Below are positions 1,194-20,281 of a stretch of 64,000 nucleotides of DNA, one piece after another. The stretch spans positions 3,361,001 to 3,425,000 of the forward strand of contig NZ_CP064356.1 in the NCBI RefSeq assembly GCF_018141545.1, written 5' to 3'. Within the stretch, counting starts at the first letter, position 1. Each line of letters starts with the position of its first letter. This DNA comes from Miltoncostaea oceani (GTDB taxonomy: Bacteria; Actinomycetota; Thermoleophilia; Miltoncostaeales; Miltoncostaeaceae). The translations under genes and the position numbers were made by a program. The notes below the pieces were generated by a model. The model saw only the letters and a list, made by a program, of their open reading frames with translations. It was not told the origin of the DNA and searched no databases.

Positions 1194-3536
1194 ATGATGA
1201 AGCCAGCGACCCACACCGTGAACGAGCTATTCGAACGCGATGTCCGGTACGTCGTCCCACTGTTTCAGCGGCCGTACGTATGGGACCGTGAGGATCAGTG
1301 GGAGCCTTTGTGGGAGGACATCTGCGTCCTCCTCGACCACCAGGCCGAGGCGGCGACCAGCCCCGTGCCATCGCACTTCCTCGGAGCGATCGTCCTTGAG
1401 CAGGACGACGTGTTCGTGCCGGGCGCGATCCCGGTCTTCACCGTCATCGACGGCCAGCAGCGCCTTACCACGCTTCAGCTCCTCCTTGCCGCCGCAGCAG
1501 CGGCTCTGCGCGAGGCTGGCGCCGAAGACGACGCGGAGCTGCTCGACGACTTGGTTCGCAACAACCCGAAGAAGGCCAAGGGGGACGAGCTCTTCAAGGT
1601 CTGGCCGACGAATGCCAACCGCGCAGCCTTCGCCGCGGTCATGGCGCCGAACGGGCCGGCCCCGGATCGGGAGGACGATCCCGATAACCGCATCGATGAG
1701 GCCTACGCGTACTTCCGGGAGCGCATCGCCGAATGGTTGAGTGCACAGGGCGATCTCGATGAGGGGGGCTCGTCCGGCGCGCGAGCCCTGCTCCTTCGGA
1801 TCACTTTGGTGGATCTCCTGCGGCTCGTATCGATAACCCTCGAAGCGGGCGACAACGCCCAGGTGATCTTCGAGACCTTAAACGCCCGGGGCACTCCTCT
1901 TCTAGCCCTCGACCTGGTGAAGAACGCGGTCTTCCACGCGGCGGCCCGCCACGGCGAGGAGGTCGAGACCCTCTACGAGCAGCGCTGGCGACCCGAACTC
2001 GACGCCGACTATTGGCGCCAAGAGCGCGTCCAGGGGCGGCTGCGCCGGCCCCGTGGCGAGCTCTTTCTCATGCACTGGCTCGCGATGAAGCTCGAGCGGG
2101 TGATCCCCGCAACAGAACTCTTCGCTGTGTTCCGAAAGGACGTCCTGGGGGATGGCGCTGCGATCGCCGTCCGGTCCCTCATCGACGAGCTGTGCCGGGA
2201 CGCACGAATCATGCGCGGCTTCGATGACTTCGCTCCAGCGAGTCCCGAGGGTCGATTCTTCGGTCGTCTAGAGCTGCTCGACACGAGCACCCTCATGCCC
2301 CTCGCGTTGCTCCTCTTTCGGCAGCGCGATATCGATCCGTCGCGACGCCGGCGTGCCCTCGCAGCGCTTGAGAGCTGGCTGGTCCGCCGTGGGCTCATGC
2401 GCCTCACCTCGCAGACGTACAACCGCGAGATCCCTCGGCTGCTCGCCAAGGTCGCCGCTGCACCTGAACGGGCTGACGAGGTCATCGTTGCGCACCTGCG
2501 AGCAGCGGCGGGACAGGCATCGCGGTGGCCGAGCGACGACGAACTCGTCGCCTTCTTGGTCTCGCAGAATCTCTACGGCTTGGTGGCTCAGAAGCGGCTC
2601 GTGATGGCGCTGAGCGCCGTCGAGGAGGCAATGCACGGCGACAAGACGGAGCTGCTCGGCGTCGGCGCCCTCTCGCTGGAGCATGTAATGCCGCAGAGCT
2701 GGCAGGCGCATTGGCCCCTTCCCCAGGGCGTTGATGAGACCGAGGCGATCGCGGCGCGCTCAGCGCGGATTCATCGACTTGGCAACCTCACCCTGACGAG
2801 CATGCCACTGAACGCGGCGCTCTCGAACAGCGCTTGGGAGCGCAAACAGCGCGAGCTGAACGCCCACACTCGGCTCTTCCTCAACGTCGATCTGGTCGAT
2901 CGCTACGGAGGAGGCTTCGGGGAGGCCGAGATCGACGAGCGGTCGGTGTGGCTCGCCGACGCGATTCGGCGCACCTGGCCTGGCCCTGACGATCTGCTCT
3001 GGCTGACGGACAAGGAGCCAGTGCAGCCTGTCATCGCTCGACATGGCGCGCGGGTCCCGACGGATGGCATGGCCTTGGCCGAAGCGGACCTTCGCGCGGA
3101 GTCCGCGACAGACGCGCCAGCCGACTTCCTTGCCGCGCCACGTTCTTCCGCATCTGCCGTTTCCCCAGCGACGGCAGAGCGGATGGTCCGCCTGCACCAC
3201 GAAGGGCCCCGGCTGCGAGGTCGAGCCCTCAGCGATGCCGTCGGCCTCCCATCTGGCTGGACGCCGTTCCTGGCAATGCTGTCAGCGGAGCCCCGCGTCT
3301 ATCCCCACATCCGTCTGGAGCCGACCGGTCAAGACGTGGTAGCAGCACGAGAAGGGCGCTTGCCGGCGAGCCGACTGATCTCAGGCGAGGAGGCGACGCT
3401 CCGGTGGGAGCGAATCGCGGCCAGGGCGGGGATCACTGCCGCCCAGGCACGCGAACTTTACGACTCCGTTCGCGGGCCTGGCGCTGCGCGTCGCAACTAC
3501 ACGGGGCGGGGTCGCCGGTTTCCGACGATGGATTGA
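1194..3536 (+). CDS. GmrSD-type modification-dependent endonuclease (DUF262-DUF1524)
   Basis: This is a single-chain Type IV restriction protein of the GmrSD/BrxU kind, which uses NTP hydrolysis to cut DNA carrying modified (for example glucosylated hydroxymethyl) cytosines. The N-terminal DUF262 (GmrS) domain shows FQRPYVW near residues 24-30 and the hallmark DGQQR at 86-90, which forms the nucleotide site. The DUF1524 (GmrD) HNH-like domain lies at about 490-560, with LEHVMPQSW and the later HRLGNLTL/N motif. About 220 further residues follow and are not recognised. At 780 aa it is longer than minimal GmrSD fusions. Two in-frame ATG codons (1194 and 1197) sit together with no clear Shine-Dalgarno, so leaderless translation is possible. 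It converges on the minus-strand BREX operon, a setting known for BrxU, which suggests a partner role against phages with modified bases. Its G+C is visibly lower than the right half of the window. Confidence 0.88.
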   Translation: MMKPATHTVNELFERDVRYVVPLFQRPYVWDREDQWEPLWEDICVLLDHQAEAATSPVPSHFLGAIVLEQDDVFVPGAIPVFTVIDGQQRLTTLQLLLAAAAAALREAGAEDDAELLDDLVRNNPKKAKGDELFKVWPTNANRAAFAAVMAPNGPAPDREDDPDNRIDEAYAYFRERIAEWLSAQGDLDEGGSSGARALLLRITLVDLLRLVSITLEAGDNAQVIFETLNARGTPLLALDLVKNAVFHAAARHGEEVETLYEQRWRPELDADYWRQERVQGRLRRPRGELFLMHWLAMKLERVIPATELFAVFRKDVLGDGAAIAVRSLIDELCRDARIMRGFDDFAPASPEGRFFGRLELLDTSTLMPLALLLFRQRDIDPSRRRRALAALESWLVRRGLMRLTSQTYNREIPRLLAKVAAAPERADEVIVAHLRAAAGQASRWPSDDELVAFLVSQNLYGLVAQKRLVMALSAVEEAMHGDKTELLGVGALSLEHVMPQSWQAHWPLPQGVDETEAIAARSARIHRLGNLTLTSMPLNAALSNSAWERKQRELNAHTRLFLNVDLVDRYGGGFGEAEIDERSVWLADAIRRTWPGPDDLLWLTDKEPVQPVIARHGARVPTDGMALAEADLRAESATDAPADFLAAPRSSASAVSPATAERMVRLHHEGPRLRGRALSDAVGLPSGWTPFLAMLSAEPRVYPHIRLEPTGQDVVAAREGRLPASRLISGEEATLRWERIAARAGITAAQARELYDSVRGPGAARRNYTGRGRRFPTMD

Positions 3537-4085: not shown

Positions 4086-5651
4086 TCACTCCGGACATCG
4101 CTCGTCGTCATGGACTCCGACGTGTGCAAACTCGATGGTCCCATCAGCGAGGACCCACCAGTGGAGCCGGCGCGCCGACGGCGTCTCCCTTTGCAGGGCG
4201 CAGCGCCAGGCCTTCGCCCCATCCAAGCTCCGAACGCGCTGCGGGGCTCCCGCGCCCCTCGACACGCGCAGCTGATGAAGATCACGACCGGGGATCTCCT
4301 TCGCTCGTCCGGACGCCACCTGCGCACAGACCTCGATGACCTTCGGGCGGGCTATCCCCTCGAGGCGGTCGAGCGCCTGGAGAAACTCGGGATGCAGACG
4401 CATTGGCTGCAGTGGGAAGCGAGTCCGATCATCGACGAGCCACATCGCATGGACATCACGGATCTCGTCAAGGAAGGCAGCCGCGGGCTCCGCGCCGACT
4501 TCGGTGTCTATCTCCGCGAGGCCTGCGCCCCGTAGCCGCTCCTTCAGGCTGAGGACGTCCCATTCCAGGCGCTTGACCTCGGCGTCCCGTTGGGACAGCT
4601 CCGCCTCGAGTTCGACGAGGTCGACCAGCGCAGCCTCGCGATCGTTGGTAACCGCCCGCAGACTCCTCTCGAGGTCTTCGATAAGCGAGGCGTCAACGAT
4701 CGACTCTGTCATTTGGCCCGCTGCGGCTTTCGCCCTCAACTCGCCCAGCTCCGCCAGGACCCTGTCCGACTCGCGGCGACGGAGCTCGATCCTCAATCTG
4801 TCGAGGCCGCCGAGCGGGCGATGGCCCGCGCGCGCCGCTGCGGTGACCGTCTCGACGATCTCCTCGACTGGCCGCTCACTCGAACCCGGGAGGAGGAGAG
4901 CGTGCTGGCGAGGTGTGTCGCCGGAACGGAAGCCCGGCCACCAGATGCGCACCGCCCCGTTGTAGACGCCCAGCCTCTCGGGTAGCAGTGCGCTGAGCGC
5001 CCAGGTCGTCTCTGGGGGAATGAGCCACACGTGCGCCATGCCCGCGAGGGCGCGCGCGAGTCGCTCCGCCGAAAGGAACGGTTCACCCGAAGGTCGGTGG
5101 CTTATCCCGATCACCGGCAAACGGCGATCCCGCGCGAACAGCAGCTGTGACGCGAAGTCGTCGACGCCCGACCGCGCCAGAGTGGACGGACTGCCAGAGA
5201 GGGGCGTCTCGCCGTCGAGGCATTCCAGCCCGCTGGCTTCGACAATCGCCCTGGTCACCCCGGGTGGCATCGGAGTGTCGGTCCTGAAGAGTCGGACGCG
5301 CTGGTCGCGTCGCTCTCGGCCGAGCGTGACCGATACGGCAGTGTCGGCGGCGTTCGGGTCCTCCAGGGCCTCTATTTCGACAACCCAGAGGACACTCGGG
5401 TCCTTCCCGTCGGCGTGCGCGAACTGCATCCGCCACGCCCACGCGTCGTCGCCGCCCAGATCGATCTTCTCGGCAACGATCTGCGCTCGTTTGCGGCCTA
5501 CCTCCGACCAGTTGCCTCCATGAACGAGCTCCTCGGGAGAGATCTCGAGCTCCGCCCATTGCCCAGCGGCGCCCGCTATATCGACCAACGAGGCGGGGTT
5601 GTCCGTGCTGTGATCGCGAACGGAGAGGGTGACGGCGATGTCGATTGCCAT
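4086..5651 (-). CDS. Unknown protein, central coiled coil, in BREX operon
   Basis: I do not recognise this 521-aa protein. ATG 5651 is chosen because it lies one base after the TGA of the AAA+/kinase gene (TGAaATG), which implies translational coupling. Residues 1 to about 280 look like a mixed alpha/beta globular region (MAIDIAVTLSVRD at the start). About residues 290-400 are charged and heptad-like (LRIELRRRESDRVLAELGEL, later LVELEAELSQRDAEVKRLEWD), indicating a coiled coil. The last 50 or so residues (GAKAWRCALQRE, RLHWWVLADGTIEF, VGVHDD) resemble the ending of RelE/ParE-like folds, with a basic strand pair followed by a terminal H-D. This is a weak visual resemblance and not an assignment. 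Its place directly behind the kinase fusion suggests a substrate, adaptor or effector of that protein. Confidence 0.7.
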   Translation of the reverse strand: MAIDIAVTLSVRDHSTDNPASLVDIAGAAGQWAELEISPEELVHGGNWSEVGRKRAQIVAEKIDLGGDDAWAWRMQFAHADGKDPSVLWVVEIEALEDPNAADTAVSVTLGRERRDQRVRLFRTDTPMPPGVTRAIVEASGLECLDGETPLSGSPSTLARSGVDDFASQLLFARDRRLPVIGISHRPSGEPFLSAERLARALAGMAHVWLIPPETTWALSALLPERLGVYNGAVRIWWPGFRSGDTPRQHALLLPGSSERPVEEIVETVTAAARAGHRPLGGLDRLRIELRRRESDRVLAELGELRAKAAAGQMTESIVDASLIEDLERSLRAVTNDREAALVDLVELEAELSQRDAEVKRLEWDVLSLKERLRGAGLAEIDTEVGAEPAAAFLDEIRDVHAMWLVDDRTRFPLQPMRLHPEFLQALDRLEGIARPKVIEVCAQVASGRAKEIPGRDLHQLRVSRGAGAPQRVRSLDGAKAWRCALQRETPSARRLHWWVLADGTIEFAHVGVHDDERCPE

Positions 5652-5652
5652 T

Positions 5653-8115
5653 TCAGCCCCCCCGGCTCCCGCGTGCGGCGACCAGCGCCTCTCGCATCTC
5701 CGCCGCCGTCTGGAAGCGCTCATCGCGCTCGGGCGCGCACGCCTTCATCAGGAAGGCGGCGAGGTCAGACGGTAGATCGGTCCGAATGGTGCGCGGGTCG
5801 ATCAGCGAGTGGCCGGCGGGCCGCCCGTTGGGATACGGGTGGGTGCCGTTGCAGAGCAGCTCGTAGAGCATCACGCCCACCGCGAAGAGGTCGGTCGAGA
5901 CGTCCCATCGCGTGAGGTCGGCGTCGGGCGCCTGGTAGGGCGGCGTGCCCGACTGGGTGTGGACGGGGTCGCCCACCCGTGATGCGATGTTGAAGTCGAG
6001 GAGCTTGGCGCCGGTGCGCGTGAGGATGACGTTGAGGGGCTTGATGTCGCGGTGAACGAGCCCCTTGTCCTGCAGATCCATCCACTCGTCGTACTCGGCT
6101 TCGCTCAGCTCGCTTTCTCGGTTCTTGCGGTCGAGCTGCTCCAGGCGGACCGAGTCGGGATGGATTGCGACAAGGGCATCGAGCACATCGAGGGCGACGT
6201 CGATCGCCTCGCGATCGCGCAGGTGCTTCCCGCCTCCCGCGTAGTCGGCGAGCGACTCGCCTTCGATGTACTCGGTGATCAGATACCAGTCGCCGGTGTC
6301 GCTCCTTCCAGCCCAGAACACCTCGACGACGTTGGGGTGGCGGACCTTCCGCAGAGCCGCGATCTCGCGTCTCACCGCCTCGTAGCCGTATGCGTTGTCG
6401 AAGAGCTTGAGAGCCCGCTCTTCCATCTCGACATCGTCGAGCACACGGTAGACCTTGGAGAAGCCGCCTTCCCCAAGCACGCTGAGGATCTCGAACCTGC
6501 CGGCGATCTTGTCGCCGACCGAGTACCTGGTCGCTTTCGTTCCGCGCGACGACTCGACCTCAGCGGGGTCGGGTTCGGGAATGCGCTCACCACTCGTTGT
6601 TTGCCCTCGCTTGCCGCCGACGCTGTCGCGATCCCGGTGATGCTTGACCGACTCGTCGCAGTAGACGATCCGCTCCGGCGCATCGCCCACCCGGTAGCTC
6701 AGGTCGACGTTCCCGAACTCGCCCGCGCCGATGAAGGCCTGCTGCTCCTTCACCCGCCGCCGCATCTCGAGCGCCAGCTCAGCCGACCACGCGATCGCCT
6801 CGTCGGGGATCTCCTGCTCAGGATTCGGCCAGAGGAGCTTGAGGAGTCCGTTGACGGTGTTGTTCGCGGCCTTTCGATCGCGCCCGCTGAGTTGTCTTCC
6901 CCACTCCAGACGACCTTGCACGGCGTCGAGGCGCGACGTCCGTCGCATCTGGCTCCAACACTCGGCGAGGAAGTCGCTGACGAAACCGAAGTGGGTGCTG
7001 AAGTAGGACGGGTCGAGCTTTGGGACGTCCCATCCCGGCAGGTATGCATGGATGCGATCGTGGAAGGCGGTGTCGTCGCGCATCTCTTTCGGCATCGGCC
7101 CGAAGAGGTGGCCGCGCCGCAACTGCTCCGCGACGTCCACATCGAAGTTGCCGACCATGACGACCCCGCCGTCGGCGCGGATGCTCTCCTTGCCGCGGCT
7201 GAACTCGCCCGACTCCATGTAGCCCTTCAGGATGTTGACGCCCTCCTTCGTGTCGAAGGAGACGCCGGAGACCTCGTCGAAGCAGACGACGTCGTACTGG
7301 GCAACCAGACCTCGCCGGCCCGTCGCGTTGTTGACGAACATGTTGGCGATGGTCGCCTTGCCGCCCGACACGAGGTGGGCGTACGGCGAGACCTGCTGGA
7401 AGAGATGCGACTTGCCGGTCCCGCGAGGCCCCAGCTCAACCGCGTTGTAGTTCGGCACGACGAACGGGAGCATCCGGGCGATCAGCACGTCCTGCTCTCG
7501 CCGCGAGAAGCGGGAGGGCTCGAAGCCGACACTGCGAAGCAGGAGCCCGCGCCACCGCTCGAGCGTGAAGCGCTCGCGTCCCGCGATCAGTGTGTCGAGC
7601 GCATCGCGCGTCGACATCTGGATCGGCCGCACCGAGTCGACCCGGAATGGCTGGCCCCCCGAGTCGCGCCCGAGTGCGGCGATGTACTCGAGCGTCACCT
7701 CGGCGTAGAAGCCACCGGTGAGCATTCGATCGTGCTCGTTGACGAGGTCGTCGCCGATGTGGATGTCGCTGAGCTGCAGACTCGGCAGCTCGGCCTTGTA
7801 GGCGTCCGACTTGGCGTCGAGCCGCGCGCGGAGCAGGTCGATGATCTTGACCCGCCCCTTCTCGCGCGCCCGCGACTTGAAGAGCTCCTCCTCGCCGGGC
7901 CGCACAGTCCGTTCCTTCATCGACCGCTCGACGATGGCGAGGCCCTCGGCGATCTCGTCGGGATCCGTCGTCGCGCAGTAGCGACCGAGGAGGAACTCTC
8001 CGACGTACGTGGGGACCGGGTACTGGCCGCGGAACTGCTGCGCGAGGTCCTTTCGCACGAGGTAGCCCTCGAAGGCCTCCGCCGCCAGGCGATCGAGGTC
8101 GTCGAGCGCGCTCAC
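5653..8115 (-). CDS. BrxL AAA+ core fused to a Ser/Thr protein kinase
   Basis: This is an 820-aa two-part protein. Residues 1 to about 475 match the BrxL (BREX Lon-like) AAA+ region: NAVELGPRGTGKS with Walker A at 229-236, VVCFDE (Walker B) at 276-281, HLFGPMPKEM with DDTAFHDR, and HAYLPGWDVPK at 356-366. BrxL normally continues into a Lon-like protease domain. Here a linker (about 480-530) leads into a Hanks-type kinase: G-loop GEGGFSKV 548-555, lysine K570, E584, HRDIKPLN 688-695, DFN (in place of DFG) 707-709, APD (in place of APE) 729-731, and an F-helix aspartate near 742. The N-lobe lysine, the HRD aspartate and the Mg-binding N and D are present, so it may be active. No transmembrane segment is seen. 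GTG 8115 overlaps the pglZ stop (GTGA). In Pgl (type 2 BREX) the kinase PglW is a separate protein; this fusion is not one I know. Confidence 0.87.
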   Translation of the reverse strand: MSALDDLDRLAAEAFEGYLVRKDLAQQFRGQYPVPTYVGEFLLGRYCATTDPDEIAEGLAIVERSMKERTVRPGEEELFKSRAREKGRVKIIDLLRARLDAKSDAYKAELPSLQLSDIHIGDDLVNEHDRMLTGGFYAEVTLEYIAALGRDSGGQPFRVDSVRPIQMSTRDALDTLIAGRERFTLERWRGLLLRSVGFEPSRFSRREQDVLIARMLPFVVPNYNAVELGPRGTGKSHLFQQVSPYAHLVSGGKATIANMFVNNATGRRGLVAQYDVVCFDEVSGVSFDTKEGVNILKGYMESGEFSRGKESIRADGGVVMVGNFDVDVAEQLRRGHLFGPMPKEMRDDTAFHDRIHAYLPGWDVPKLDPSYFSTHFGFVSDFLAECWSQMRRTSRLDAVQGRLEWGRQLSGRDRKAANNTVNGLLKLLWPNPEQEIPDEAIAWSAELALEMRRRVKEQQAFIGAGEFGNVDLSYRVGDAPERIVYCDESVKHHRDRDSVGGKRGQTTSGERIPEPDPAEVESSRGTKATRYSVGDKIAGRFEILSVLGEGGFSKVYRVLDDVEMEERALKLFDNAYGYEAVRREIAALRKVRHPNVVEVFWAGRSDTGDWYLITEYIEGESLADYAGGGKHLRDREAIDVALDVLDALVAIHPDSVRLEQLDRKNRESELSEAEYDEWMDLQDKGLVHRDIKPLNVILTRTGAKLLDFNIASRVGDPVHTQSGTPPYQAPDADLTRWDVSTDLFAVGVMLYELLCNGTHPYPNGRPAGHSLIDPRTIRTDLPSDLAAFLMKACAPERDERFQTAAEMREALVAARGSRGG

Positions 8116-10457
8116 CGGTTCCTCCCCACGACGACCTCGCGCTGCACCAGGATCTGGCCGTCCGGAGCTACGAGGACTAGGTACGCCTTCTCGCCCTCGA
8201 GGTCCTCATCCGGGACCACGAGCGACACCTTGCCGGCACCGAGGGTCTCTTTCGCCTCTTCGGCGATGCTCGTCCCGGGGTCGCCCGGCAGCGCGCGGAG
8301 ATCGGCGAGGATCTGGCCCTGCGGTCCCGCGAACTCGATCCGGCAGAGCAAGCCGAGCCACTTGAGCGTCGTGATGGTGGGCGCCGCGTCCGCCGCCAGC
8401 GCCCCACCGCTCCTGACCAACAGGCGAGGCACTATGCACTCCTGCGGGCTGACGCCACCGTGCTCGTACTCCTTGCTGGCCTCGAAGCAGGTGACGCCGG
8501 GCGCGATCGCGATGCGAACATCCCGGTCCCAGTACCACGGCACGGTAGGGACATTGACCGAAGCGCCGTCCTTGAGACGTGCGCACCTCCCCTTCTTCTT
8601 CGTCGCCGTCGCGACGGGGACGTCCACCTTCTCCATTCCTCCCGGCAGGAGTATCCACCCGTGATCGGTGATGACCTCGACCTGCTGCCAGCCTGCGTCG
8701 AGTAGTTGCGCGACCCGCCGAGCGATCTTGGCGACTTCGTCGTCGACGTCATCGATCAACGGCGCGCCGGCTTCGTGGCCGAGATGGTCGATCTGCCCGG
8801 CCTCCGTCCAGCCTGCCCCCGACGGATCGCCGGTTTCGATGGCAGACATCCATTGCACGCCGCTCTCCCGCGCCAGCGATTCGAGTACAGCCTTCGACGC
8901 CTTGGCGCCGCTCGACGCCCGCGCCGCCCCGAGGTCCTCGCCTGCGGCCAATGACCCCGCGGGCACCGGGACGAGGGCTGCTTTTGCCGTCTCGGTGACG
9001 GTCGGGAGCGCGGCAAGGGACGTCGTCAGCTCGACGTCACGACCGCCGTCGGCGAGTTGCTCCACCAGGCGCTGGGCGATATCGAGTCGCAGACCATCGA
9101 CGAACACGCTGACGGTGCCGGCTGCCGTGGAGGCCTGCGCCCCCAACCGGTAGCTGTCGGAGTCCGCCATCGGACCGACGATCGTCTGCAGGGCTCTCGC
9201 GCCGGCGTCGAGCCACCAGCGGTAGATGGCGCTGACGGCAGCCGCGACGGCGGCGCGATCGGGCCCCGACTCGACGAGGCCAAGGGCGCGCAGGGCTGCG
9301 TCATCGGCACGCCAGCCGCGCTCCACATAGTCGGCAACCAAGGAGTCGAGGGTGGTTTCGGCCAGCGGCCGAGCAGTGACCTCCGCCAGAGCGACGAGCT
9401 GCTCCAGCGCGAAGGCGAGCGGCGCCTCGTCCAGTTCAGCCCAGACGGTCCGGCGGCGCCACGAATGCTCGGCGTCGAGGCGTTCGGCCTCCTTGCGTGC
9501 CCCCTCGGGGGTCAACGACGCAAAGTCGAGCAAGAGGTTCCGGAGCTGCGCTTCCCCGACCTCGTTGTCCTGCGGCCAGACCTCCGACCGGTCCACGGGC
9601 CCGAGTTCCAGCTGCTCCTCGGGGCGCGCCCTTCGCAGTTGGCCCGGGATGCCTGGGTATCGTTCAGGCGCGTCGGCGAACGCCTGCCAGACGGCAGCCC
9701 ACTTCCCCTGGCGAGCTGCGAGCTTCCGCGCCCCGGTGATCTCGCCATCCACCCTCGGGTCGAAGCCGAAGTCGGTCTTGCTCTGCTGAACGAACGCTAT
9801 CCAGCGGTTGTCGTCGAACTCGTCGCGCGTGCGTGTGGGGTCGTCGAGCCACGCCAGGAGGCTCCGGATCGGGTCCGGATTGACCAGCTCCCGAAAGAAG
9901 TCCGCGTCGAGGAGCGCGAACTTCTCCAACCTTTCCATGTCTCGGTCCAGCAACGGTCGAAGCGCCGCAAGAAGCGCCCTCTCCGACTCGCTGTCCTCCG
10001 CGATTGGCAGACCGAGGCCACGGTCGTGATTCGCGAGCAGACCGCGAGCCGACCAGTCGCGAGTATTCGGATGGGAGAACCACTGGCTGCGGTACTGCAG
10101 CTCAGCGATCGGGGCGAGCTCGGCGGGGCACTCGTCGATGGCTCGCAGAGCACTGCGCGCGACCCCTGGGAGATAGACGACCGGAACCTCCTCCGCGTGC
10201 AGTCCGACCTCGAGGGTGCGAGCCACCGCGCAGCGCACCCAGTACGCCGGCCCGCGCGGCGGTGCCTCGTTCCCGTCCGGCGAGTACTCGCCCAGAGCCA
10301 CGATCGGAAGACGTTCGGCCAGAAGGTCGATGACCGGCTCCCACTGCCGGGCCTCGTCCGGCCAGAGCAGGGCAACGGGCGCGACGCGTACGTTCTTGTC
10401 GTAGTCGAGGGCCGAGCGGATCCTCATCTCGAGGCGGTCGAGCACGGTCTCGCTCAC
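8112..10457 (-). CDS. pglZ: BREX phosphatase-like protein PglZ
   Basis: PglZ belongs to the alkaline-phosphatase superfamily and is one of the two core proteins of all BREX systems. It contacts the PglX methyltransferase and is needed for phage exclusion. In this 781-aa protein the metal-site motifs are visible: VFVDGLRLD near 451-459, with the conserved Asp and Arg, and ITDHGW at 596-601. The N-terminal half is the usual variable helical region. GTG 10457 is chosen because it overlaps the upstream pglX stop as GTGA; a longer reading back to 10562 would only add low-complexity residues inside pglX. The gene lies between pglX and the AAA+/kinase gene and overlaps the latter by four bases, so the three are almost certainly one transcript. 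Confidence 0.9.
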   Translation of the reverse strand: MSETVLDRLEMRIRSALDYDKNVRVAPVALLWPDEARQWEPVIDLLAERLPIVALGEYSPDGNEAPPRGPAYWVRCAVARTLEVGLHAEEVPVVYLPGVARSALRAIDECPAELAPIAELQYRSQWFSHPNTRDWSARGLLANHDRGLGLPIAEDSESERALLAALRPLLDRDMERLEKFALLDADFFRELVNPDPIRSLLAWLDDPTRTRDEFDDNRWIAFVQQSKTDFGFDPRVDGEITGARKLAARQGKWAAVWQAFADAPERYPGIPGQLRRARPEEQLELGPVDRSEVWPQDNEVGEAQLRNLLLDFASLTPEGARKEAERLDAEHSWRRRTVWAELDEAPLAFALEQLVALAEVTARPLAETTLDSLVADYVERGWRADDAALRALGLVESGPDRAAVAAAVSAIYRWWLDAGARALQTIVGPMADSDSYRLGAQASTAAGTVSVFVDGLRLDIAQRLVEQLADGGRDVELTTSLAALPTVTETAKAALVPVPAGSLAAGEDLGAARASSGAKASKAVLESLARESGVQWMSAIETGDPSGAGWTEAGQIDHLGHEAGAPLIDDVDDEVAKIARRVAQLLDAGWQQVEVITDHGWILLPGGMEKVDVPVATATKKKGRCARLKDGASVNVPTVPWYWDRDVRIAIAPGVTCFEASKEYEHGGVSPQECIVPRLLVRSGGALAADAAPTITTLKWLGLLCRIEFAGPQGQILADLRALPGDPGTSIAEEAKETLGAGKVSLVVPDEDLEGEKAYLVLVAPDGQILVQREVVVGRNR

Positions 10458-13400
10458 AACGTCCCCACCCGGTGTCGGGCCTCGCGCTTGTCCGCCAAGC
10501 TCAAGTGCAGGTCGTTGTGGCGCTCCGAGCCATCGGGGTTCTTGCCGCGGTCCTTGCCCCACTTGACGTTGAAGGGGGCGCGCAGCACGCCGGCCGTCAC
10601 GAACGGCCGAACGTTGAGGCGCACACCGTCGTTGAGGTCAGGCTCCCACCCGACCGGCTGCTCATGGAGGTCCTTCCAGCGCACGTAGATGTCGTAGGGA
10701 TCCTCGCCTTCGAGGATCAGCTCGAGGCGACGTTGCAGGCCCTGAGCGGCGGCCAGGCGCTCGTCCGCGCCGGCAACTTCCTCCCGCACCTCGGCGCGCA
10801 CCCGCTCCATCCAATCCTGACCCAAGTAGGTGTAGGTGAGGCGCTCGAGCATCCGCCGGTCGAGACGGTGGTAGTTCACCAGCGCCGAGAAGCCGTCCGG
10901 TCGGCCATCCCAGATGTGCCAGACAAAGGGACGACTGCCGAACAAGGCGCAGTGCTGCTTGAAGAACTCATCGCGAAGCCAATCGACAAGGCTCTTCTTC
11001 TTGGAGCCGGCCTGCTCCAACAGCTCACGCGCCTTCGCCGCCGACCAATCCTCGCCGAAGGCCGCCCCCAAAAGCTGCTGGAGACGGTCCGCCGCCGGCG
11101 CCTCACCGGCCACCGCCGGCAGACAGACGATCCCGTCGCTATCGGCGAGGGGATCGAGGTCGTCGGATTCCGGCTGCTCAGGCCAGCGATACCCGACCAA
11201 GCGGCCGACCCCGACCTGCAGCGGCGAAGTCGAGACCTCCGGGCGCCCCTGGAAGAGCCACTGGGTGGGGTCGTCGGAGAAAGGCTCAGGTAGAGGACCC
11301 GCCTCCTCAGCGACCTTGCGCCAATGGTCAACGTCGAAGGGCACCTTCGCCAGAGTATTCGCCGTAACGCCGATCTTATGGTCAATCTCCCGCACTCGAG
11401 CCGAGTACTCCCTAGATGAGCAGAAGTGCCATATGGCCGGAACGATCGCGGAGTCCCGAGGGACAATGACCGCGATGACGTTTTCGAAGAGTTGCCCCTC
11501 GTATAGCGTCACCGGAAGGTCGCCGGTGTATCGGACGGCGACGCCGGACCGGTTCCAGGCGCCCCGGCCGGCGATCGTCGCCCCCGCCAGGGCTGCTTTC
11601 GACAAGGCTCCAGTGCCCAACTCCCATCGCAGGACATGTTCGCGTCCTCGGTACGCGCCCGTGCGGTCGGGCGGCCCCTGCTGAGGTACCCAGGAGCCAT
11701 TTGGCACAAGAATCTCCCAGAAGAAGGCGCGGAACCGGGGTGAGTCGCCCGTGGTGATGCCGCCGAGGGCGTCCGCGTGCTCGGACAGCAGCGATCCGCC
11801 TCCCGAAAAGGTGAGCAGCATTCGCGCATCTGGGTTGTTAAGTATGTCGCCCACGGAGCACTCCAGCTGCTCGATGATCCTCAGCCCGACGGCCTTTTCG
11901 GCTGGCGAATGTAGTGAACTGACGTCGTAACCCCGAACCCGACCAGCAAGGGTGGTTTTGGCCTCTTGGACGACGGCGAGGCCAACGTTAACCACCTCAC
12001 CGCCTACCCCCTCAAAAGCTCGTGCGCCAAGGTGAGTGCAGTTGAGAAGTGAGTGACTGCGTAGGAGTTCTTCGCGGAATTCGCGGTAGCGTCCGAGCAG
12101 AAACCAAGATCGGGGACAGACAACGACATGGACGCCGTTCTTGGTCAACAGACTAAGGCTTCGGTCAATAAAGGCTGTCGCTAGGTCTTCGCGCGCAGTC
12201 CAGTGGTTGTTCTCAATGAAGCGGCGAAGGGACGTTGCTTGGCGGGCCTTCTGCAGGTACGGCACGTTCGTAGCGACCAGCGTATAGCGGCGCGCCAAGT
12301 ACACAGCAGCCCTGGCCAATGCGGTCGCGTCTCCACCTATCACTGCAGTGCCAGGATCAAGCTCCTCCTGGCTTGCCGCGGTCGCCAATAGCTGAGGCAC
12401 CACATCCCATTGCACGTCATAGAACGAGTCTTGGTGAGCGTCCGTGCAGATGGTTCGCTGTGGATCGATCAGGCTCCCGAGCGTGTCGGCATCGCGAAAA
12501 AGTCCATGGAGGCGTACGAGAGCGTCTTCCAGCCGCTGGTCCCCTTCGGCCAGAGCTTTCCACTCCTCCACGGGCGCTTTGACGGGGATCCCCGAGCAGG
12601 CGATGTTCGGGACCGGCAGCTGGCGCCAGCCGCCGCCGTCCTTCCAGGCCTTGAGGGCGACGGCGAACATGGCGATCTCGACACACCGCGGGTCGATCTC
12701 GAGGCCGAACAGGTTGTCGCGAAGGACCGCGTCCTGGGCCTCGACCGGGTCGAGGCCCTCCTCCTCGACGCGCATCTGCCAGAGCATCGAAAAGGCCTCG
12801 ACCAGGAAGTGCCCTGAGCCACAGCACGGGTCCATCACCGTGACCTCGGCGACCCGTTTGGGCCAGCCGTCGAACGAGCCGGCCGCCGGAGCGCCATCGT
12901 CGTCGAAACGCAGATACTCGAAGCCGGCGATTAAGGGACTGTCGGGGTGGCGGGCCGCCCACCAGGCCCCGAGTGAGTTCTCCAACAGGAACCGGACCAT
13001 GTAGTTCTCGGTGAATAACTGGGTGACCGGCCCCAGATCGGCGCCGCCGATCTTGCGCTCAGAAGCGTTGATCTCGTCCTTTTTGTCCTTCTGCCAGAAC
13101 TGGTAGACCCAGCCGAGGGAGTCATCAGCGCCAAAGACCTCCGATGGCAGACCCTCGAGGATCTGCTCGAGGGCAAACCGGCCCTCAGGCGCCAAGCGAA
13201 GGCGTACACACGGGTCATCGAGGCGAAAGATGCCCGGCAGAATCTCCGCGGCAAAGCGGGCCGCAACCGCCCAGCCATCGGGCTCACCGAGGCTAGGTGC
13301 GAGCTCCTCGCACTCGGCGAGGGTCAGCCGAGCCTTGTACTCAGGGTGCAGCAGCAGGCCATTCTCAGCCAGGAAGCGCGCGAACAGGAGGCGATGCCAC

Positions 13401-13642
13401 TGCTCGTAGGCGCATTCTGCGACGAGCAACGGCCGGCCCTCATCCCCGCCGCCCAACTGACGCCACTTCTGGCGCAGGCCGATCCGAAGGGCAGCCTGCT
13501 CTTCGCTCAGGTGAGCCGGGCGATCGCGCTCGAAGACGCTCAGGCCATCAAGGGCAGCCCGCGACCCGGCCTCAGCGGCGCGGCGCGCCGCCAACACCGC
13601 CGACTCGAGCTGCCGACGCAACGGTGACGAGAGAGCCCTCAC
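10454..13642 (-). CDS. pglX: BREX adenine-specific methyltransferase PglX, second copy
   Basis: This is a 1062-aa Eco57I-like N6-adenine methyltransferase that marks host DNA in BREX systems. The SAM-binding motif I is DPCCGSGHF at 271-279. The catalytic motif reads NVPY at 459-462 instead of the usual NPPY, as in the neighbouring copy. The first 372 residues are identical in protein, and by eye in DNA, to the upstream copy. Residues from about 373 to 790, which should hold target recognition, are unrelated or distant, and the C-terminal 250 residues are again close (RLVGYRWPEQPESDDLD is shared). Bases near 11.8-12.5 kb are clearly AT-richer than the rest (31/60 G+C at 12121), suggesting an imported specificity module. 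GTG 13642 overlaps the first pglX stop (GTGA), and pglZ overlaps its own stop in the same way. Confidence 0.9.
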   Translation of the reverse strand: MRALSSPLRRQLESAVLAARRAAEAGSRAALDGLSVFERDRPAHLSEEQAALRIGLRQKWRQLGGGDEGRPLLVAECAYEQWHRLLFARFLAENGLLLHPEYKARLTLAECEELAPSLGEPDGWAVAARFAAEILPGIFRLDDPCVRLRLAPEGRFALEQILEGLPSEVFGADDSLGWVYQFWQKDKKDEINASERKIGGADLGPVTQLFTENYMVRFLLENSLGAWWAARHPDSPLIAGFEYLRFDDDGAPAAGSFDGWPKRVAEVTVMDPCCGSGHFLVEAFSMLWQMRVEEEGLDPVEAQDAVLRDNLFGLEIDPRCVEIAMFAVALKAWKDGGGWRQLPVPNIACSGIPVKAPVEEWKALAEGDQRLEDALVRLHGLFRDADTLGSLIDPQRTICTDAHQDSFYDVQWDVVPQLLATAASQEELDPGTAVIGGDATALARAAVYLARRYTLVATNVPYLQKARQATSLRRFIENNHWTAREDLATAFIDRSLSLLTKNGVHVVVCPRSWFLLGRYREFREELLRSHSLLNCTHLGARAFEGVGGEVVNVGLAVVQEAKTTLAGRVRGYDVSSLHSPAEKAVGLRIIEQLECSVGDILNNPDARMLLTFSGGGSLLSEHADALGGITTGDSPRFRAFFWEILVPNGSWVPQQGPPDRTGAYRGREHVLRWELGTGALSKAALAGATIAGRGAWNRSGVAVRYTGDLPVTLYEGQLFENVIAVIVPRDSAIVPAIWHFCSSREYSARVREIDHKIGVTANTLAKVPFDVDHWRKVAEEAGPLPEPFSDDPTQWLFQGRPEVSTSPLQVGVGRLVGYRWPEQPESDDLDPLADSDGIVCLPAVAGEAPAADRLQQLLGAAFGEDWSAAKARELLEQAGSKKKSLVDWLRDEFFKQHCALFGSRPFVWHIWDGRPDGFSALVNYHRLDRRMLERLTYTYLGQDWMERVRAEVREEVAGADERLAAAQGLQRRLELILEGEDPYDIYVRWKDLHEQPVGWEPDLNDGVRLNVRPFVTAGVLRAPFNVKWGKDRGKNPDGSERHNDLHLSLADKREARHRVGTL

Positions 13643-13645
13643 GGC
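12528..13645 (-). repeat. Long direct repeat, copy 2 (5' part of second pglX)
   Basis: This segment of about 1118 bp matches 15695-16812 at a constant offset of 3167 bases, and I saw no difference by eye. It covers the start codon and the first 372 codons of pglX. The identity stops abruptly at both ends. Such identity in a high-GC genome points to a recent duplication or ongoing gene conversion. Confidence 0.9.
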
Positions 13646-16600
13646 TCCTCCGCCCGCTGTCGCGCGTCGCGCTTCTCCGCCAGGCTCAGGTGTAGGTCGT
13701 TGTGGCGCTCTGAGCCGTCGGGGTTCTTGCCGCGGTCCTTGCGCCAGTGGATGTTGGGTCGGGTGCGCAGGACGTCAGCCCTCATGAACGGCCGGATGTT
13801 GAGGCGGACGCCGTCGTTGAGGTCGGGTTCCCACCCGATCGGCTGCTCGTGCAGGGACTTCCAGCGCACGTAGACGTCATAGGGGTCCTCGCCCTCGAGG
13901 ATCAACTCGAGTCGACGCTGCAGGCCCTGGGCGGCGGCCAGACGCTCATCGGCGCCGGCGACCTCCTCGCGCACCTCAGCGTGCACCCGCTCCATCCAGT
14001 CCTGGCCGAGGTAGGTGTAGGCGAGACGCTCCAGCATCCGCCGATCGAGACGGTGATAGTTCACGAGCGCCGAGAAGCCGTCCGGTCGGCCATCCCAGAT
14101 GTGCCAGACGAAAGGACGGTTGCCGAACAACGCGCAGTGTTGCTTGAAGAAATCATCCCGCAGCCAATCTGCGAGGTTCTTCCTCTTCGAGCCGGCTTGC
14201 TCCAACAGCGCACGCGCCTTCGCCGCCAACCAGTCCGCGCCGAAGGCCGCCGCCAGCAGCTGTTGGAGGCGGTCCGCCGCCGGCGCCTCACCGGCCACCG
14301 CCGGCAGACAGACGATCCCATCGCTGTCGGCGAAGCGATCGAGGTCGTCCGATTCCGGCTGCTCAGGCCAGCGGTAGCCGACCAAGCGGCCGACGGCCAC
14401 CTGCAGCGGCGAGGCCGATCCCTCGGGGCGGCCCTTGAAAAGCCACTGTGTGGGGTCGTCGGAGAGGGAGACCCGCACCGGCGCCTCCGACACACCCCGC
14501 CACCTCTCGCGATCGAAAGGCACTTTCGTCAGCGATGAGTTTGTCACCTTGAGACTTCGGTCGACGAGCCGAACCTTTGCGTTAAATTCTCCCGAACTGC
14601 AGTACGCCCAGAGCGCGCCCAAATCGGCCGCGTCGTTTGGGATCAGTGCGGCCGTGTTATTGTCGAACAACTCGCCGTCGTATATCGAGGCGCGCAGCTC
14701 GCCCATCAACGAAATCAGAACACCCTGCCTACCCCAGGCGGCGCGACCCTGGATGCGAGCGGCCGGGTTGGCGAGGTGATAAGCGCCGTCATCCGCCCAG
14801 TAAGCCACGCCGGAGCGCCCACCGTACCGGCTGTGCGTCTCGACTGTCGACTGGATATACCGCCAACGATCGCCGAGGCTGGAGCTTGAGACTTCCCAGA
14901 ACCCCCTGCGGAACCTGGCGTTGTCGGCCATATGAAGACCTATATACGCCTGGGCGAAGTCCGCGATCATCGACATTTGATCCCAGGAGGGGTCGAGTAC
15001 GATGATGCCGTTGGGATGCTTCTGTTGTGCCGATTGCTCGTACAGGTACGCCGGTTCTGACCGGATTCCACTGGCCTTCTCACTGGGAGAAGGGGCACGC
15101 GAAACGTCGATGCCTGCAAACCGACGTGGCGTCTCAGCGGAGTAAATCGTTAGAGCGACGTTGACGACCTCACCAGACACGGAGCCGAAGGCTCCGGGTC
15201 CAAGAATGACGACGGCCTTCAAGCCGAAGTTCTCTAGTAGGTGGCGTCGAAAGTCGGAGTAGTAGGCCTGGTACGTCCAACTTTGAGGCGTTACGGCCGC
15301 GACTGTATCGGCAAGTCGTCGAGCCATCCGATCCATAAAGACCGTGGCGAGATCGGCTCTGGCATATGAGTGCCAGACCTCGACAAACTCCTGAAGGAGG
15401 AGCCTCTGCGACCCCCTCTTTAGGTACGGCACGTTGGTCACAGCCAAGGTATAAGAGCGCGTCAGGAGGGCGTTGCATCGCACGAGGTCTGCTGCTTGAT
15501 AGCCGAGCGCCCGCGCCGAGGACTCTGGTGGCTCGCCAGCGGTAGCGTCTCTCAGCATCAGTTCAACCTGCTCGAACTCGATTCCAGTTAGTTCGAGTTG
15601 GCCATTGCCTGGTAATGCGACTCTTCGTGGATCGATCAGGCTCCCGAGGGTGTCGGCATTGAGGAACAGATGGTGCAAACGCTCAAGCGCCGCCTCCAGC
15701 CGCTGGTCCCCTTCGGCCAGAGCTTTCCACTCCTCCACGGGCGCTTTGACGGGGATCCCCGAGCAGGCGATGTTCGGGACCGGCAGCTGGCGCCAGCCGC
15801 CGCCGTCCTTCCAGGCCTTGAGGGCGACGGCGAACATGGCGATCTCGACACACCGCGGGTCGATCTCGAGGCCGAACAGGTTGTCGCGAAGGACCGCGTC
15901 CTGGGCCTCGACCGGGTCGAGGCCCTCCTCCTCGACGCGCATCTGCCAGAGCATCGAAAAGGCCTCGACCAGGAAGTGCCCTGAGCCACAGCACGGGTCC
16001 ATCACCGTGACCTCGGCGACCCGTTTGGGCCAGCCGTCGAACGAGCCGGCCGCCGGAGCGCCATCGTCGTCGAAACGCAGATACTCGAAGCCGGCGATTA
16101 AGGGACTGTCGGGGTGGCGGGCCGCCCACCAGGCCCCGAGTGAGTTCTCCAACAGGAACCGGACCATGTAGTTCTCGGTGAATAACTGGGTGACCGGCCC
16201 CAGATCGGCGCCGCCGATCTTGCGCTCAGAAGCGTTGATCTCGTCCTTTTTGTCCTTCTGCCAGAACTGGTAGACCCAGCCGAGGGAGTCATCAGCGCCA
16301 AAGACCTCCGATGGCAGACCCTCGAGGATCTGCTCGAGGGCAAACCGGCCCTCAGGCGCCAAGCGAAGGCGTACACACGGGTCATCGAGGCGAAAGATGC
16401 CCGGCAGAATCTCCGCGGCAAAGCGGGCCGCAACCGCCCAGCCATCGGGCTCACCGAGGCTAGGTGCGAGCTCCTCGCACTCGGCGAGGGTCAGCCGAGC
16501 CTTGTACTCAGGGTGCAGCAGCAGGCCATTCTCAGCCAGGAAGCGCGCGAACAGGAGGCGATGCCACTGCTCGTAGGCGCATTCTGCGACGAGCAACGGC

Positions 16601-16809
16601 CGGCCCTCATCCCCGCCGCCCAACTGACGCCACTTCTGGCGCAGGCCGATCCGAAGGGCAGCCTGCTCTTCGCTCAGGTGAGCCGGGCGATCGCGCTCGA
16701 AGACGCTCAGGCCATCAAGGGCAGCCCGCGACCCGGCCTCAGCGGCGCGGCGCGCCGCCAACACCGCCGACTCGAGCTGCCGACGCAACGGTGACGAGAG
16801 AGCCCTCAC
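13639..16809 (-). CDS. pglX: BREX adenine-specific methyltransferase PglX, first copy
   Basis: This 1056-aa PglX paralogue has the same layout as its downstream twin: an N-terminal helical region, SAM motif DPCCGSGHF at 271-279, catalytic NVPY at 459-462, a divergent central region that probably reads the target, and a C-terminal domain close to the other copy (SDDPTQWLF onwards). Two PglX proteins with different central regions would normally methylate two different asymmetric sequences. The gene starts seven bases after the brxC stop with GTG 16809. Its TGA overlaps the GTG of the next pglX. The segment about 14.5-15.6 kb, corresponding to the divergent part, is less GC-rich than the conserved ends. 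Confidence 0.9.
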   Translation of the reverse strand: MRALSSPLRRQLESAVLAARRAAEAGSRAALDGLSVFERDRPAHLSEEQAALRIGLRQKWRQLGGGDEGRPLLVAECAYEQWHRLLFARFLAENGLLLHPEYKARLTLAECEELAPSLGEPDGWAVAARFAAEILPGIFRLDDPCVRLRLAPEGRFALEQILEGLPSEVFGADDSLGWVYQFWQKDKKDEINASERKIGGADLGPVTQLFTENYMVRFLLENSLGAWWAARHPDSPLIAGFEYLRFDDDGAPAAGSFDGWPKRVAEVTVMDPCCGSGHFLVEAFSMLWQMRVEEEGLDPVEAQDAVLRDNLFGLEIDPRCVEIAMFAVALKAWKDGGGWRQLPVPNIACSGIPVKAPVEEWKALAEGDQRLEAALERLHHLFLNADTLGSLIDPRRVALPGNGQLELTGIEFEQVELMLRDATAGEPPESSARALGYQAADLVRCNALLTRSYTLAVTNVPYLKRGSQRLLLQEFVEVWHSYARADLATVFMDRMARRLADTVAAVTPQSWTYQAYYSDFRRHLLENFGLKAVVILGPGAFGSVSGEVVNVALTIYSAETPRRFAGIDVSRAPSPSEKASGIRSEPAYLYEQSAQQKHPNGIIVLDPSWDQMSMIADFAQAYIGLHMADNARFRRGFWEVSSSSLGDRWRYIQSTVETHSRYGGRSGVAYWADDGAYHLANPAARIQGRAAWGRQGVLISLMGELRASIYDGELFDNNTAALIPNDAADLGALWAYCSSGEFNAKVRLVDRSLKVTNSSLTKVPFDRERWRGVSEAPVRVSLSDDPTQWLFKGRPEGSASPLQVAVGRLVGYRWPEQPESDDLDRFADSDGIVCLPAVAGEAPAADRLQQLLAAAFGADWLAAKARALLEQAGSKRKNLADWLRDDFFKQHCALFGNRPFVWHIWDGRPDGFSALVNYHRLDRRMLERLAYTYLGQDWMERVHAEVREEVAGADERLAAAQGLQRRLELILEGEDPYDVYVRWKSLHEQPIGWEPDLNDGVRLNIRPFMRADVLRTRPNIHWRKDRGKNPDGSERHNDLHLSLAEKRDARQRAEEP

Positions 16810-16816: not shown

Positions 16817-19800
16817 TCAGATGTTCACCGTCTTGCCCGCATCGAGATGCGGCTGGATCTTGGCGCGCAACTGGTCGAGGTAGGCCTGGAGCTCGCCGTC
16901 GGCGGAGATCGTAGCCGGCGGCGGCGTGACGGTGACGCTCTCGGGTGCGAGGAGCTTGGCGGCAAGGTGCCTCGCGTGATCACGGCGGCCAGGCACCAAG
17001 CTGATCTTGTCCTTCCAGGCGCTGAGGGGCGTCGTGTCGAGTGCGGCAATCAGCTTCTCGCTGTTCCCGACGTCGGGCGCTTCGGCCGTGGTCAGCTGCG
17101 CCTCAGCGAGGATGCGCTCCCTCTCGATGGAGTCGATCTCTGACCACTCGCGCCAAGCTTCCAACTCCTTCAGTGCGTTGCCCTGGGCGGACGCGAGCTC
17201 CTGAGCGCGACGCGTCACTTCGTCGCGCAAGGCGTCGCCGAGTTCGCGAAGGAGCGGAGTGGTCGGATCGGGGGTATCGAGCAGTTGACGCCCCTCGCGA
17301 ATCGCCGTGGCCGCCGGCTGCACTCGGGCGGCAACATCGAGGGACTCGGCGTGACGCAGCAGGCGCTCGAGCTCGCGCCAGTGGCGTTCCCGGGCCTCGC
17401 GCTCCTGATCCTTGGCTCGCCACGTGCGGAAATCAGCGCTCAGGCGCTCGTGGTCATCGGCCAAAGCCCTGAACCGCTGGTTTCCTCCCAAGGTTAGAAG
17501 GGCGTCGAGGTGATCGGTGTCGGGCTCCTCAGGGAGGGGAGGCGGCCCCCCCGCGCGACTGGCGAGGTCCTTGAGTCGTTGGAGTAATGCGGGGATCTGG
17601 ACGCCTTCGTCGCCGGTCTCGTACTGCACCCCGGCCTCACCCAGAAGCCCCCGCACCTTGAGCCTCTGCTCCATCGTCGGCGGCTCGTCCTCCCTGTAGA
17701 AGGTCGTCTTGCCGATCTGCGTGGGGAGTAGCTCCTTCGGGCCGGCGAGGTCCGTGCCGTCCTGGGCTGCACGAACGTTCCCCGCCGCAACGAGGGTCAG
17801 GAGCGCTCCCACCACGGCATCCTTCGGCCACCCGAAGGGGGCGCCGGAGAACTCGCGCTGGAGGTCGCTGCCCTTCGTGCCGCCGGCGCTGATCGAGCCC
17901 AGCACCTCCTTGCACACCGGGTGGGCGGTCGGCTCGCCGTGGTACCCGATCGCGGAAAGGGGGTCTGGGGCCCCCTCGCGCGCCTTGACCACCACCTTGC
18001 CCCAGTTCGCGTCGTCACCCGAGGAGAACTTCGGGAACAATCGGATGAGCGCCTTCTCGGCCGCACTCTCGACACCCGCGCGTAACGAGGGAACCGTGAG
18101 CTCCCCCACGCCCCCCATGAAGACGCGCGCGCGGCCGACGATCTCCTGGAACAGTGCCTCGAGGCGCTCGCCCTCCGCGGCAAGGCGTGTCTTCATCGCC
18201 CGCTGTGCGGCCTTGCCCTCGTCAGTCTGCGGTAGCGGACGGCGCAACGTCTGCTCGGCTGCGGCGTAGCTTGCCAGCGTGATCTTCACCTGCTCCGCGT
18301 CGTGTCGGGGCAGCAGGACGAAGACCACTGGACTCTCGTCACCGGCGGCGGCTGCCGCGTCCCGCACAGAGGCTTCCGTCACGGACCATCCATCCCGGAT
18401 CCAGACCGGCACGTTTCCCGCGGCGACGTCCGGCGGGCCCGACTCCCAGTGGATCACCGGGGTGCGCGCCGTCTTGCTCTTGCCGTGCAAGACCTTGAGC
18501 CCGGAGAGCGCCTGCTCGGCGGATGCGACGATGCGCTCACTCCGCAACGCGCCGAGCCGAGCCGCGTCGTCACGGATGTCGGCGAAGGCAACCTGGTAGG
18601 CCTTCTCCCACTCGGCGCCTTCCTCGGTTTGCAGGCGGTACTCGTCATCGATCCGCATGAGGCAGCCGTCGGTGACGAGCGTCGCCAGAAGCTCCGGGAC
18701 CTTCCTCCGCAGCAGCGCACGGTCGTCGGCGAGGTCCTCCACCAGGAGGTCCTCGATGAACACGTCGGTCGCTCGCAGGCCCGTCTCGCCGGCGATGGTG
18801 CGTGCGGGGATCTCCGAGATGAGGAACACCAGTGCACAGATGCGGGACTTGAGCTCACCGTCGGGGCCCTCCGCGCGCAGGCCGCGGATGAGCTCGTCGA
18901 TCTCCTTGAGGAGCGCCCCGCTCTGGAGCATCCCCGGCGACTGCTCGTCGTAGAGGAAGTCCGCCCCGACCACATGGCCGGCCGGCCGACCGGCGACGTG
19001 CGCCGCGGCCCCGTGAACGATGCGTAACTGCGTGCGAAGGACGCCGGACTTGCCGCCCTGGTCGATCGCACGTAGCGCGTGCTCCCAGAAGCGCCGTCGT
19101 GTCGGCAGCAGCGGATAGTCAGGAACGAGGTCGGGCTTGTCCGCTGCCCGAGGAGCCAGCTGGGTGCCGCCGAGATGCTTGTTGATCTCGCCGCTCTCGG
19201 CATCGAGGATCGCCTCGAGGGCCGCGCGATGCTCAGGCTTCTTCTGCAGCACGACCTCGCGGACGACGCTCTCGACGTCGCGGTCGGATAGGGCGACCTG
19301 GACGGCGAACCGATCCGTGAGCTTCTGCAGGGTTGCGGTCGCTGTCAGGGCACTCTGACCGGTGGCGACGAACAGCAGCTGACTTTCGAACCGAGCGGTA
19401 CACCCTTCGACGATGTGCTGGACGGCGAGCGCCCGCTCGCCGTCGTCGTTGATGTACTGCTGCATCTCGTCGAGAACGATGAGCGTCAGGGGAAGCTTCC
19501 CGTCGTCGCTGGACTGCAGACGAAGGACATCGTCGATGACGCTGAACATCTCCTCGTCGGTGATGTCTGGGCGGTCGGGTGGGAACTGGGTCGCGAGGCG
19601 ATCCAGCACGTCGCTCGCGGAGGGACCGAGCCTGGGGTCAGCCTGCAGGAGCGCCTCGGCGATGATCGGCGAGACGTGCAGGTCGTTCATCTCCTTCGCA
19701 AGCGTCTGGCCCTCGGCCTCGACCGCGGTCCTGATCGCGTCGAGGTAGCCGTTCTTCTGAGCCCAGATCGTGAAGCGCGCGCGGCTGTACTCCTCGGGAA

Positions 19801-20281
19801 GATCCGCGTTCTCGAAGAGCACCGAAAGGAGCGCCAGACGTACCGACTCACCCTTGCCAGCGAGGCTGCCGGCAGCGGACCACAGACCGCCGCGACGCCT
19901 GCCTTCGGTCGTCAGCTCGACGAGGTGGTCCCGAATGTCGTCGGTGAGCCTCACCAGGTCGCGAGCGCGTTCCCCGCCCGGCAACTCGACGTCTCGCCAG
20001 AGATGCTCGAGCACCCGAACGAGATGGGACTTTCCGCTCCCGTAGAAGCCGCTCACCCAGACCGCGGGCTGCTGCGCCTGGGTGAGATTGATCAAGAAGC
20101 TCTCGAGGATGCGTTCGAGGCCGCGCGCGTACTGCCCCTCGCAGACGAAGCGGCTCAGCTCCCACCGCAGGACTTCGCGCTGCTGATGCGTCTCCGCGCG
20201 GAGGACCCGGGCGACGCCGTCGTTGGGGATCTTGTACTGGGTCGGATCCTCCGAGAAGAGCTCACGGTTGAGCAGCGTCAC
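16817..20281 (-). CDS. brxC: BREX ATPase BrxC
   Basis: BrxC (PglY in type 2) is the large P-loop ATPase of BREX, thought to assemble on DNA with the other factors. This 1154-aa protein begins NRELFSEDPTQYKIPNDG, the usual BrxC opening. It has Walker A GFYGSGKS at 78-85 within a WVSGFYGSGKSHL context, and Walker B LIVLDEMQQYI with D271/E272. The long C-terminal half is helical and charged (LRHAESLDVAARVQ and similar). GTG 20281 overlaps the brxB stop as GTGA. The length is in the normal range for the family. It sits between brxB and pglX, as in type 1-like operons. Confidence 0.93.
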   Translation of the reverse strand: MTLLNRELFSEDPTQYKIPNDGVARVLRAETHQQREVLRWELSRFVCEGQYARGLERILESFLINLTQAQQPAVWVSGFYGSGKSHLVRVLEHLWRDVELPGGERARDLVRLTDDIRDHLVELTTEGRRRGGLWSAAGSLAGKGESVRLALLSVLFENADLPEEYSRARFTIWAQKNGYLDAIRTAVEAEGQTLAKEMNDLHVSPIIAEALLQADPRLGPSASDVLDRLATQFPPDRPDITDEEMFSVIDDVLRLQSSDDGKLPLTLIVLDEMQQYINDDGERALAVQHIVEGCTARFESQLLFVATGQSALTATATLQKLTDRFAVQVALSDRDVESVVREVVLQKKPEHRAALEAILDAESGEINKHLGGTQLAPRAADKPDLVPDYPLLPTRRRFWEHALRAIDQGGKSGVLRTQLRIVHGAAAHVAGRPAGHVVGADFLYDEQSPGMLQSGALLKEIDELIRGLRAEGPDGELKSRICALVFLISEIPARTIAGETGLRATDVFIEDLLVEDLADDRALLRRKVPELLATLVTDGCLMRIDDEYRLQTEEGAEWEKAYQVAFADIRDDAARLGALRSERIVASAEQALSGLKVLHGKSKTARTPVIHWESGPPDVAAGNVPVWIRDGWSVTEASVRDAAAAAGDESPVVFVLLPRHDAEQVKITLASYAAAEQTLRRPLPQTDEGKAAQRAMKTRLAAEGERLEALFQEIVGRARVFMGGVGELTVPSLRAGVESAAEKALIRLFPKFSSGDDANWGKVVVKAREGAPDPLSAIGYHGEPTAHPVCKEVLGSISAGGTKGSDLQREFSGAPFGWPKDAVVGALLTLVAAGNVRAAQDGTDLAGPKELLPTQIGKTTFYREDEPPTMEQRLKVRGLLGEAGVQYETGDEGVQIPALLQRLKDLASRAGGPPPLPEEPDTDHLDALLTLGGNQRFRALADDHERLSADFRTWRAKDQEREARERHWRELERLLRHAESLDVAARVQPAATAIREGRQLLDTPDPTTPLLRELGDALRDEVTRRAQELASAQGNALKELEAWREWSEIDSIERERILAEAQLTTAEAPDVGNSEKLIAALDTTPLSAWKDKISLVPGRRDHARHLAAKLLAPESVTVTPPPATISADGELQAYLDQLRAKIQPHLDAGKTVNI

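Follow-up and report, generated by a model that had tools for sequence, protein, structure and literature searches.

The window, a 64,000-nucleotide stretch of Miltoncostaea oceani DNA, contains a type 1 BREX operon whose BrxL ends in a Hanks-type Ser/Thr kinase domain, at the site usually taken by a Lon-like domain. The kinase is active-looking and PknB-like, judged from its residues and modelled fold. We consider it somewhat probable that this BrxL has taken it up in exchange for a Lon-like tail, and that ring assembly on DNA switches the kinase on as the output of BrxL.

The BrxL core and the kinase half

The fusion gene is a single ORF on the minus strand (5653-8115; all features below lie on this strand unless noted), encoding 820 aa from a GTG start with no internal stops, and its start overlaps the end of the upstream PglZ gene by 4 bp. 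A sequence-only reading had taken its N-terminal part for BrxL, and this is borne out: all of the motifs quoted there are present, and a BrxL_N domain (residues 13-144, 7684-8079; PF20442, E 7e-45) is followed by the AAA+ domain BrxL_ATPase (residues 157-472, 6700-7647; PF13337, E 5e-119, and the 8emc alignment). Residues 6-481 match the solved Acinetobacter BrxL (8emc/8emh) at E 1e-124, and the BrxL model TIGR02688 gives 436 bits against a cut-off of 329. The tree agrees with these domain matches; the AAA+ part groups firmly inside BrxL. The G-K-S of Walker A (GPRGTGKS, residues 229-236, 7408-7431) is invariant in the BrxL alignment, and E281 of Walker B (VVCFDE, residues 276-281, 7273-7290) aligns with E280 of Acinetobacter BrxL. 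From these kept residues and the predicted fold we infer that the core assembles on dsDNA as an ATP-dependent ring.

The Lon-like C-terminal domain is absent. TIGR02653, the model for long Lon-type BrxL, scores 499 bits where the cut-off is 628, and its match stops at profile position 471 of 675; a Pkinase match is found instead, from residue 542 (E 2.5e-30). In Acinetobacter BrxL the C-terminal domain starts at about residue 498, joins two rings tail to tail and has no protease site (PMC10164562). Since the core alignment stops at 481, the kinase domain (residues 533-815, 5671-6519) occupies the place of that domain. The intervening linker (residues 481-532, 6520-6675) is fast evolving, with low model confidence at 489-511, and the full-length model joins the BrxL fold of 8emh/8emc to a PknB fold through this disordered segment.

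The same reading had called the C-terminal part a complete Hanks-type kinase, and so it is by the Pkinase match and by its residues: Lys570 for ATP binding (6406-6408), the catalytic loop HRDIKPLN (residues 688-695, 6031-6054) and DFN, a variant of DFG (residues 707-709, 5989-5997). Across 35 aligned kinases there is no variation at the ATP-binding Lys, the helix C Glu, HRD, the Asn or the DFx Asp, and the window kinase keeps all of these catalytic residues. The third DFx residue is N in the four distinct actinobacterial fusion genomes, G in 80 frames and D in one. A helical insert of 30 residues between helix E and the catalytic loop (residues 655-684, 6064-6153), modelled as two helices, occurs among the 35 kinases in the actinobacterial fusions only. 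The model of the kinase half (pLDDT 85) is a complete kinase fold with PknB as the nearest solved fold. The kinase half scores higher with the MAD6, PD-T4-6 and PknB models than with the PglW model; the defence kinases of MADS (MAD6) and PD-T4-6, its best NCBIfam/PADLOC models, are not fused to a BrxL core, and the likeness is one of model scores.

Between pairs of fusions the kinase has NG86 dN/dS values of ~0.25 (window and L038), ~0.14 (window and L124) and ~0.20 (L038 and L124), with synonymous sites near saturation, while linker identity among the fusions in this comparison is 30-42%. Going by these values, the kinase is under purifying selection and the linker free of it; a domain kept by selection beside a free linker would be the pattern expected of an active module. 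This bears on the idea that the kinase fold is a structural stand-in for the Lon-like domain, making ring-to-ring contacts or docking peptides, with catalysis irrelevant. The idea draws on the change of DFG to DFN and on the replaced domain itself, which serves assembly without a conserved protease site (PMC10164562). Low dN/dS speaks against it, as does the full set of catalytic residues in all four fusions from actinobacteria, three of them clean and one read in pieces, and in an independent planctomycete fusion, which has DFG; we regard the idea as improbable.

The BREX operon and its neighbours

The BREX genes are ordinary, the oddity being the BrxL tail. All six components of type 1 lie in one locus in the standard order, with PglX doubled, and are transcribed as BrxA (20835-21875; PDLC02450, 237 bits), BrxB (20278-21000; PDLC02469, 212 bits), BrxC (16817-20281; NF033441, 711 bits, cut-off 400), PglX copy b (13639-16809; PDLC02528, 1241 bits), PglX copy a (10454-13642; PDLC02528, 1281 bits), PglZ of BREX-1 type B (8112-10562; NF033450, 794 bits, cut-off 400) and, as last core gene, BrxL-kinase. 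The type 1 BrxL of Acinetobacter shares with the window protein the BrxL_N and AAA+ core, both Walker motifs, the gene order and the place at the operon end; it has a Lon-like C-terminal domain where the window protein has the kinase.

A type 2 (Pgl) identity is rejected on the PglW score and the presence of BrxL. The PglW model reaches 79 bits, on the kinase part only, against a cut-off of 990, and type 2 BREX has PglW with BrxD and BrxHI and no BrxL. PglW is also a Hanks-type kinase of a BREX-family system, but it is a separate, large protein with a NERD nuclease, a pseudokinase and C-terminal sensor parts, and without a BrxL core. A search of the window for a second kinase found none. The suggestion that the fusion might define a new BREX subtype was not supported, since the remaining components are those of ordinary type 1 BREX and the kinase-bearing BrxLs make up a small clade within the Lon-type proteins; on gene content and phylogeny the fusion is best described as a variant of BrxL within type 1 BREX.

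The tandem PglX genes (10454-16809) are 98.4% identical over their last 1183 bases and 87% over the first 820, with a middle that has no long DNA match, as if specificity regions had been swapped between the copies. A second, partial PglX copy is also seen at L041, one of the related loci described below. Upstream of BrxA (21939-26464) are a helicase with ResIII and Helicase_C domains (21939-24674) and a SIR2-domain protein, which are consistent with a defence island. Downstream, a HEC-07-like gene (4086-5723) without a Pfam family overlaps the fusion end by 71 bases; it is unmatched in the L038 and L041 loci, so that no conserved downstream partner was found there. A GmrSD-type gene (1194-3536) is convergent with the BREX operon, and at L041 a DUF262-like start similar to that of this gene follows the fusion.

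Fusions and other tails among BrxLs

Relatives were sought with PF13337 in whole genomes of several phyla (1891 genome searches, some genomes repeated). BrxL-kinase fusions make up five of the 85 BrxLs surveyed, four from actinobacteria (the window included) and one from a planctomycete. The fusion of genome G327 (L031/L038), of 814 aa, is 71% identical overall to the window protein, clean and in frame, and ends a type 1 operon with BrxA, BrxB, BrxC, PglX and PglZ; genes for group II intron maturase and phage integrase follow it (L038, 15914-18601), consistent with a mobile element. That of G564 (L124/L197) is likewise clean and in frame, with 90% identity in the BrxL part and 67% in the kinase, and its frame starts 33 residues into the window protein. 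In G434, an Egibacteraceae bacterium MAG (JAUJMS010000010.1; L041/L042), BrxL is followed by the kinase, and the gene and its neighbours are broken by frameshifts that look like a matter of assembly quality; this copy was left unrepaired and its pieces read as they stand.

The planctomycete fusion (G737, a Gemmataceae MAG; L127/L196) is a frame of 770 aa that combines BrxL_N, BrxL_ATPase and Pkinase; its BrxL part is just 27% identical to that of the window. Its kinase keeps the catalytic residues and has DFG, without the DFN motif and the helix E insert of the actinobacterial fusions. Its neighbours, SspD/BrxP, SspB-like, SspC/BrxC-like and PglZ proteins, form a type 4-like (phosphorothioation) BREX locus (L196: SspD 372 bits, SspB 45, SspC 172, PglZ weak at 24, BrxL TIGR02688 373). 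Type 4 BrxL is described as short, without a C-terminal extension (PMC12839542).

A scan of genome contigs with the kinase half returned one true fusion (L042), the remainder being ordinary kinases. Plasmids, phages and viral contigs gave no match spanning both halves, and the order to which G564 belongs held no further fusions. The sequence-only reading had named recurrent fusions in other BREX loci as support; the fusion recurs at L038 and L124, in frameshifted form at L041/L042 and independently at L196. That assembly or sequencing error joined neighbouring genes has a negligible probability, even with several relatives from draft metagenome assemblies and the L041 copy frameshifted: the window sits in a 3.68 Mb contig, and the identical in-frame junction in three separate assemblies, with a separate fusion in another phylum, rules out two misjoined genes. 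The in-frame copies at L038 and L124 together with the independent L196 exclude chance as well.

A maximum-likelihood tree of the BrxL core groups the four kinase BrxLs of actinobacteria in a single clade (support 100/100) nested among Lon-type BrxLs. The kinase tail state needs two changes on this tree, and the planctomycete fusion, a long branch of unsure exact position, is placed far from the clade; a separate planctomycete fusion means that the BrxL-kinase fusion arose at least twice.

The tails of the 85 BrxLs, classed with profiles built in this analysis, are Lon-like in 60, unclassified by profile in 10, AlbA_2-like (Schlafen) in 7, kinase in 5 and short or absent in 3. Five of the 10 unclassified tails were scanned with Pfam, and all five carry a PLD-like MIT_C domain, which we equate with the published HKD nuclease-like tail; HKD-nuclease tails on BrxL are reported for about 1030 taxa (PMC12839542). 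AlbA_2 tails were confirmed by Pfam in two, and this state also needs two changes on the core tree. The Schlafen AlbA_2-tailed BrxLs at L032 (2452-3018), which is placed close to the kinase clade, and L122 (about 2614-3027) lie on two separate branches, and we found no mention of a BrxL-AlbA_2 fusion in the literature searched. The BrxLs nearest the planctomycete fusion, L034 and L149 (L198, 2594-4060; L199, 12381-14213), have the PLD-like (MIT_C) tail; the L198 and L199 loci match type 4 proteins weakly, and HKD tails had been described as specific to type 1. The earlier statement that BrxL ends in a Lon-like domain therefore stands for the commonest tail here and not as a rule, given the published HKD tails, the short type 4 form and the AlbA_2 tails.

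We tentatively view the BrxL C-terminus as an evolutionary socket in which output domains can be exchanged for one another, be they Lon-like, HKD nuclease-like, Schlafen AlbA_2 or kinase, an idea to which we give somewhat less than an even chance. The BrxL-HKD variant of type 1 BREX (PMC12839542) is a parallel in kind: its core is the same and its Lon-like domain is likewise exchanged for an enzyme domain, a nuclease-like HKD domain there and a kinase here.

Possible roles of the kinase

Rings of BrxL assemble on DNA with ATP (PMC10164562). In our preferred reading, in which ring assembly turns the kinase on, the core would still form its ATP-dependent ring on unmethylated phage DNA and so bring six or seven kinase domains together per ring, where Lon-like domains normally meet. 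Such crowding would activate them through trans-autophosphorylation, and the active kinase, as the output of BrxL, would phosphorylate host or phage proteins, stopping the infected cell, or BREX partners, starting restriction. Several points weigh against this reading: the Gly of DFG is Asn in the window kinase, the fusions are few (five of the 85 BrxLs), and without the Lon-like tail, which holds two rings together, the double ring may not form. In Salmonella BREX, BrxL is dispensable for defence (PMC12839542), so the loss of the tail might matter little.

Alternatively, the kinase may be an internal regulator that phosphorylates PglZ, PglX, BrxC or BrxL to switch between methylation and restriction, with no toxic output. 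A like role is proposed for PglW in type 2 BREX, on whose kinase activity Pgl phage resistance depends: the K677A mutant loses both, and PglZ isoforms were seen (PMC4365076). The fusion would also tether the kinase within the complex, and the rest of the operon makes up a complete restriction set, PglZ included. Yet the HKD/PLD and AlbA_2 domains that occupy this slot in other BrxLs are of nuclease type and not regulators, and the kinase fits MAD6, PD-T4-6 and PknB better than PglW; we take regulation of this kind to be possible but rather doubtful. By analogy with other BrxLs, in which a nuclease-like HKD domain or a Schlafen domain fills this place, an effector role for the kinase appears somewhat more likely than purely internal regulation. 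Phosphorylation inside the BREX complex by the predicted kinase, as proposed from sequence alone, is plausible.

The 2026 BREX survey (PMC12839542) gives Lon-like and HKD tails for BrxL and assigns the kinase to PglW, in type 2; a BrxL-kinase fusion is not named in its main text. None was found in the literature searched, and with supplementary tables and preprints outside the reach of that search, its unreported status is provisional. Judging by the same literature, the fusion would be the first case of a kinase linked to a BREX type other than type 2.

The fusion bears on how BREX stops phages and on the role of the BrxL tail. On the tree, the kinase and the Schlafen tail were each recruited twice; together with the published HKD tails, this suggests that BrxL does not act alone but delivers an effector. 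A kinase-bearing BrxL offers a directly measurable output, phosphate transfer, for asking when BrxL switches on, and kinase-fused BREX systems may use phosphorylation against phages.
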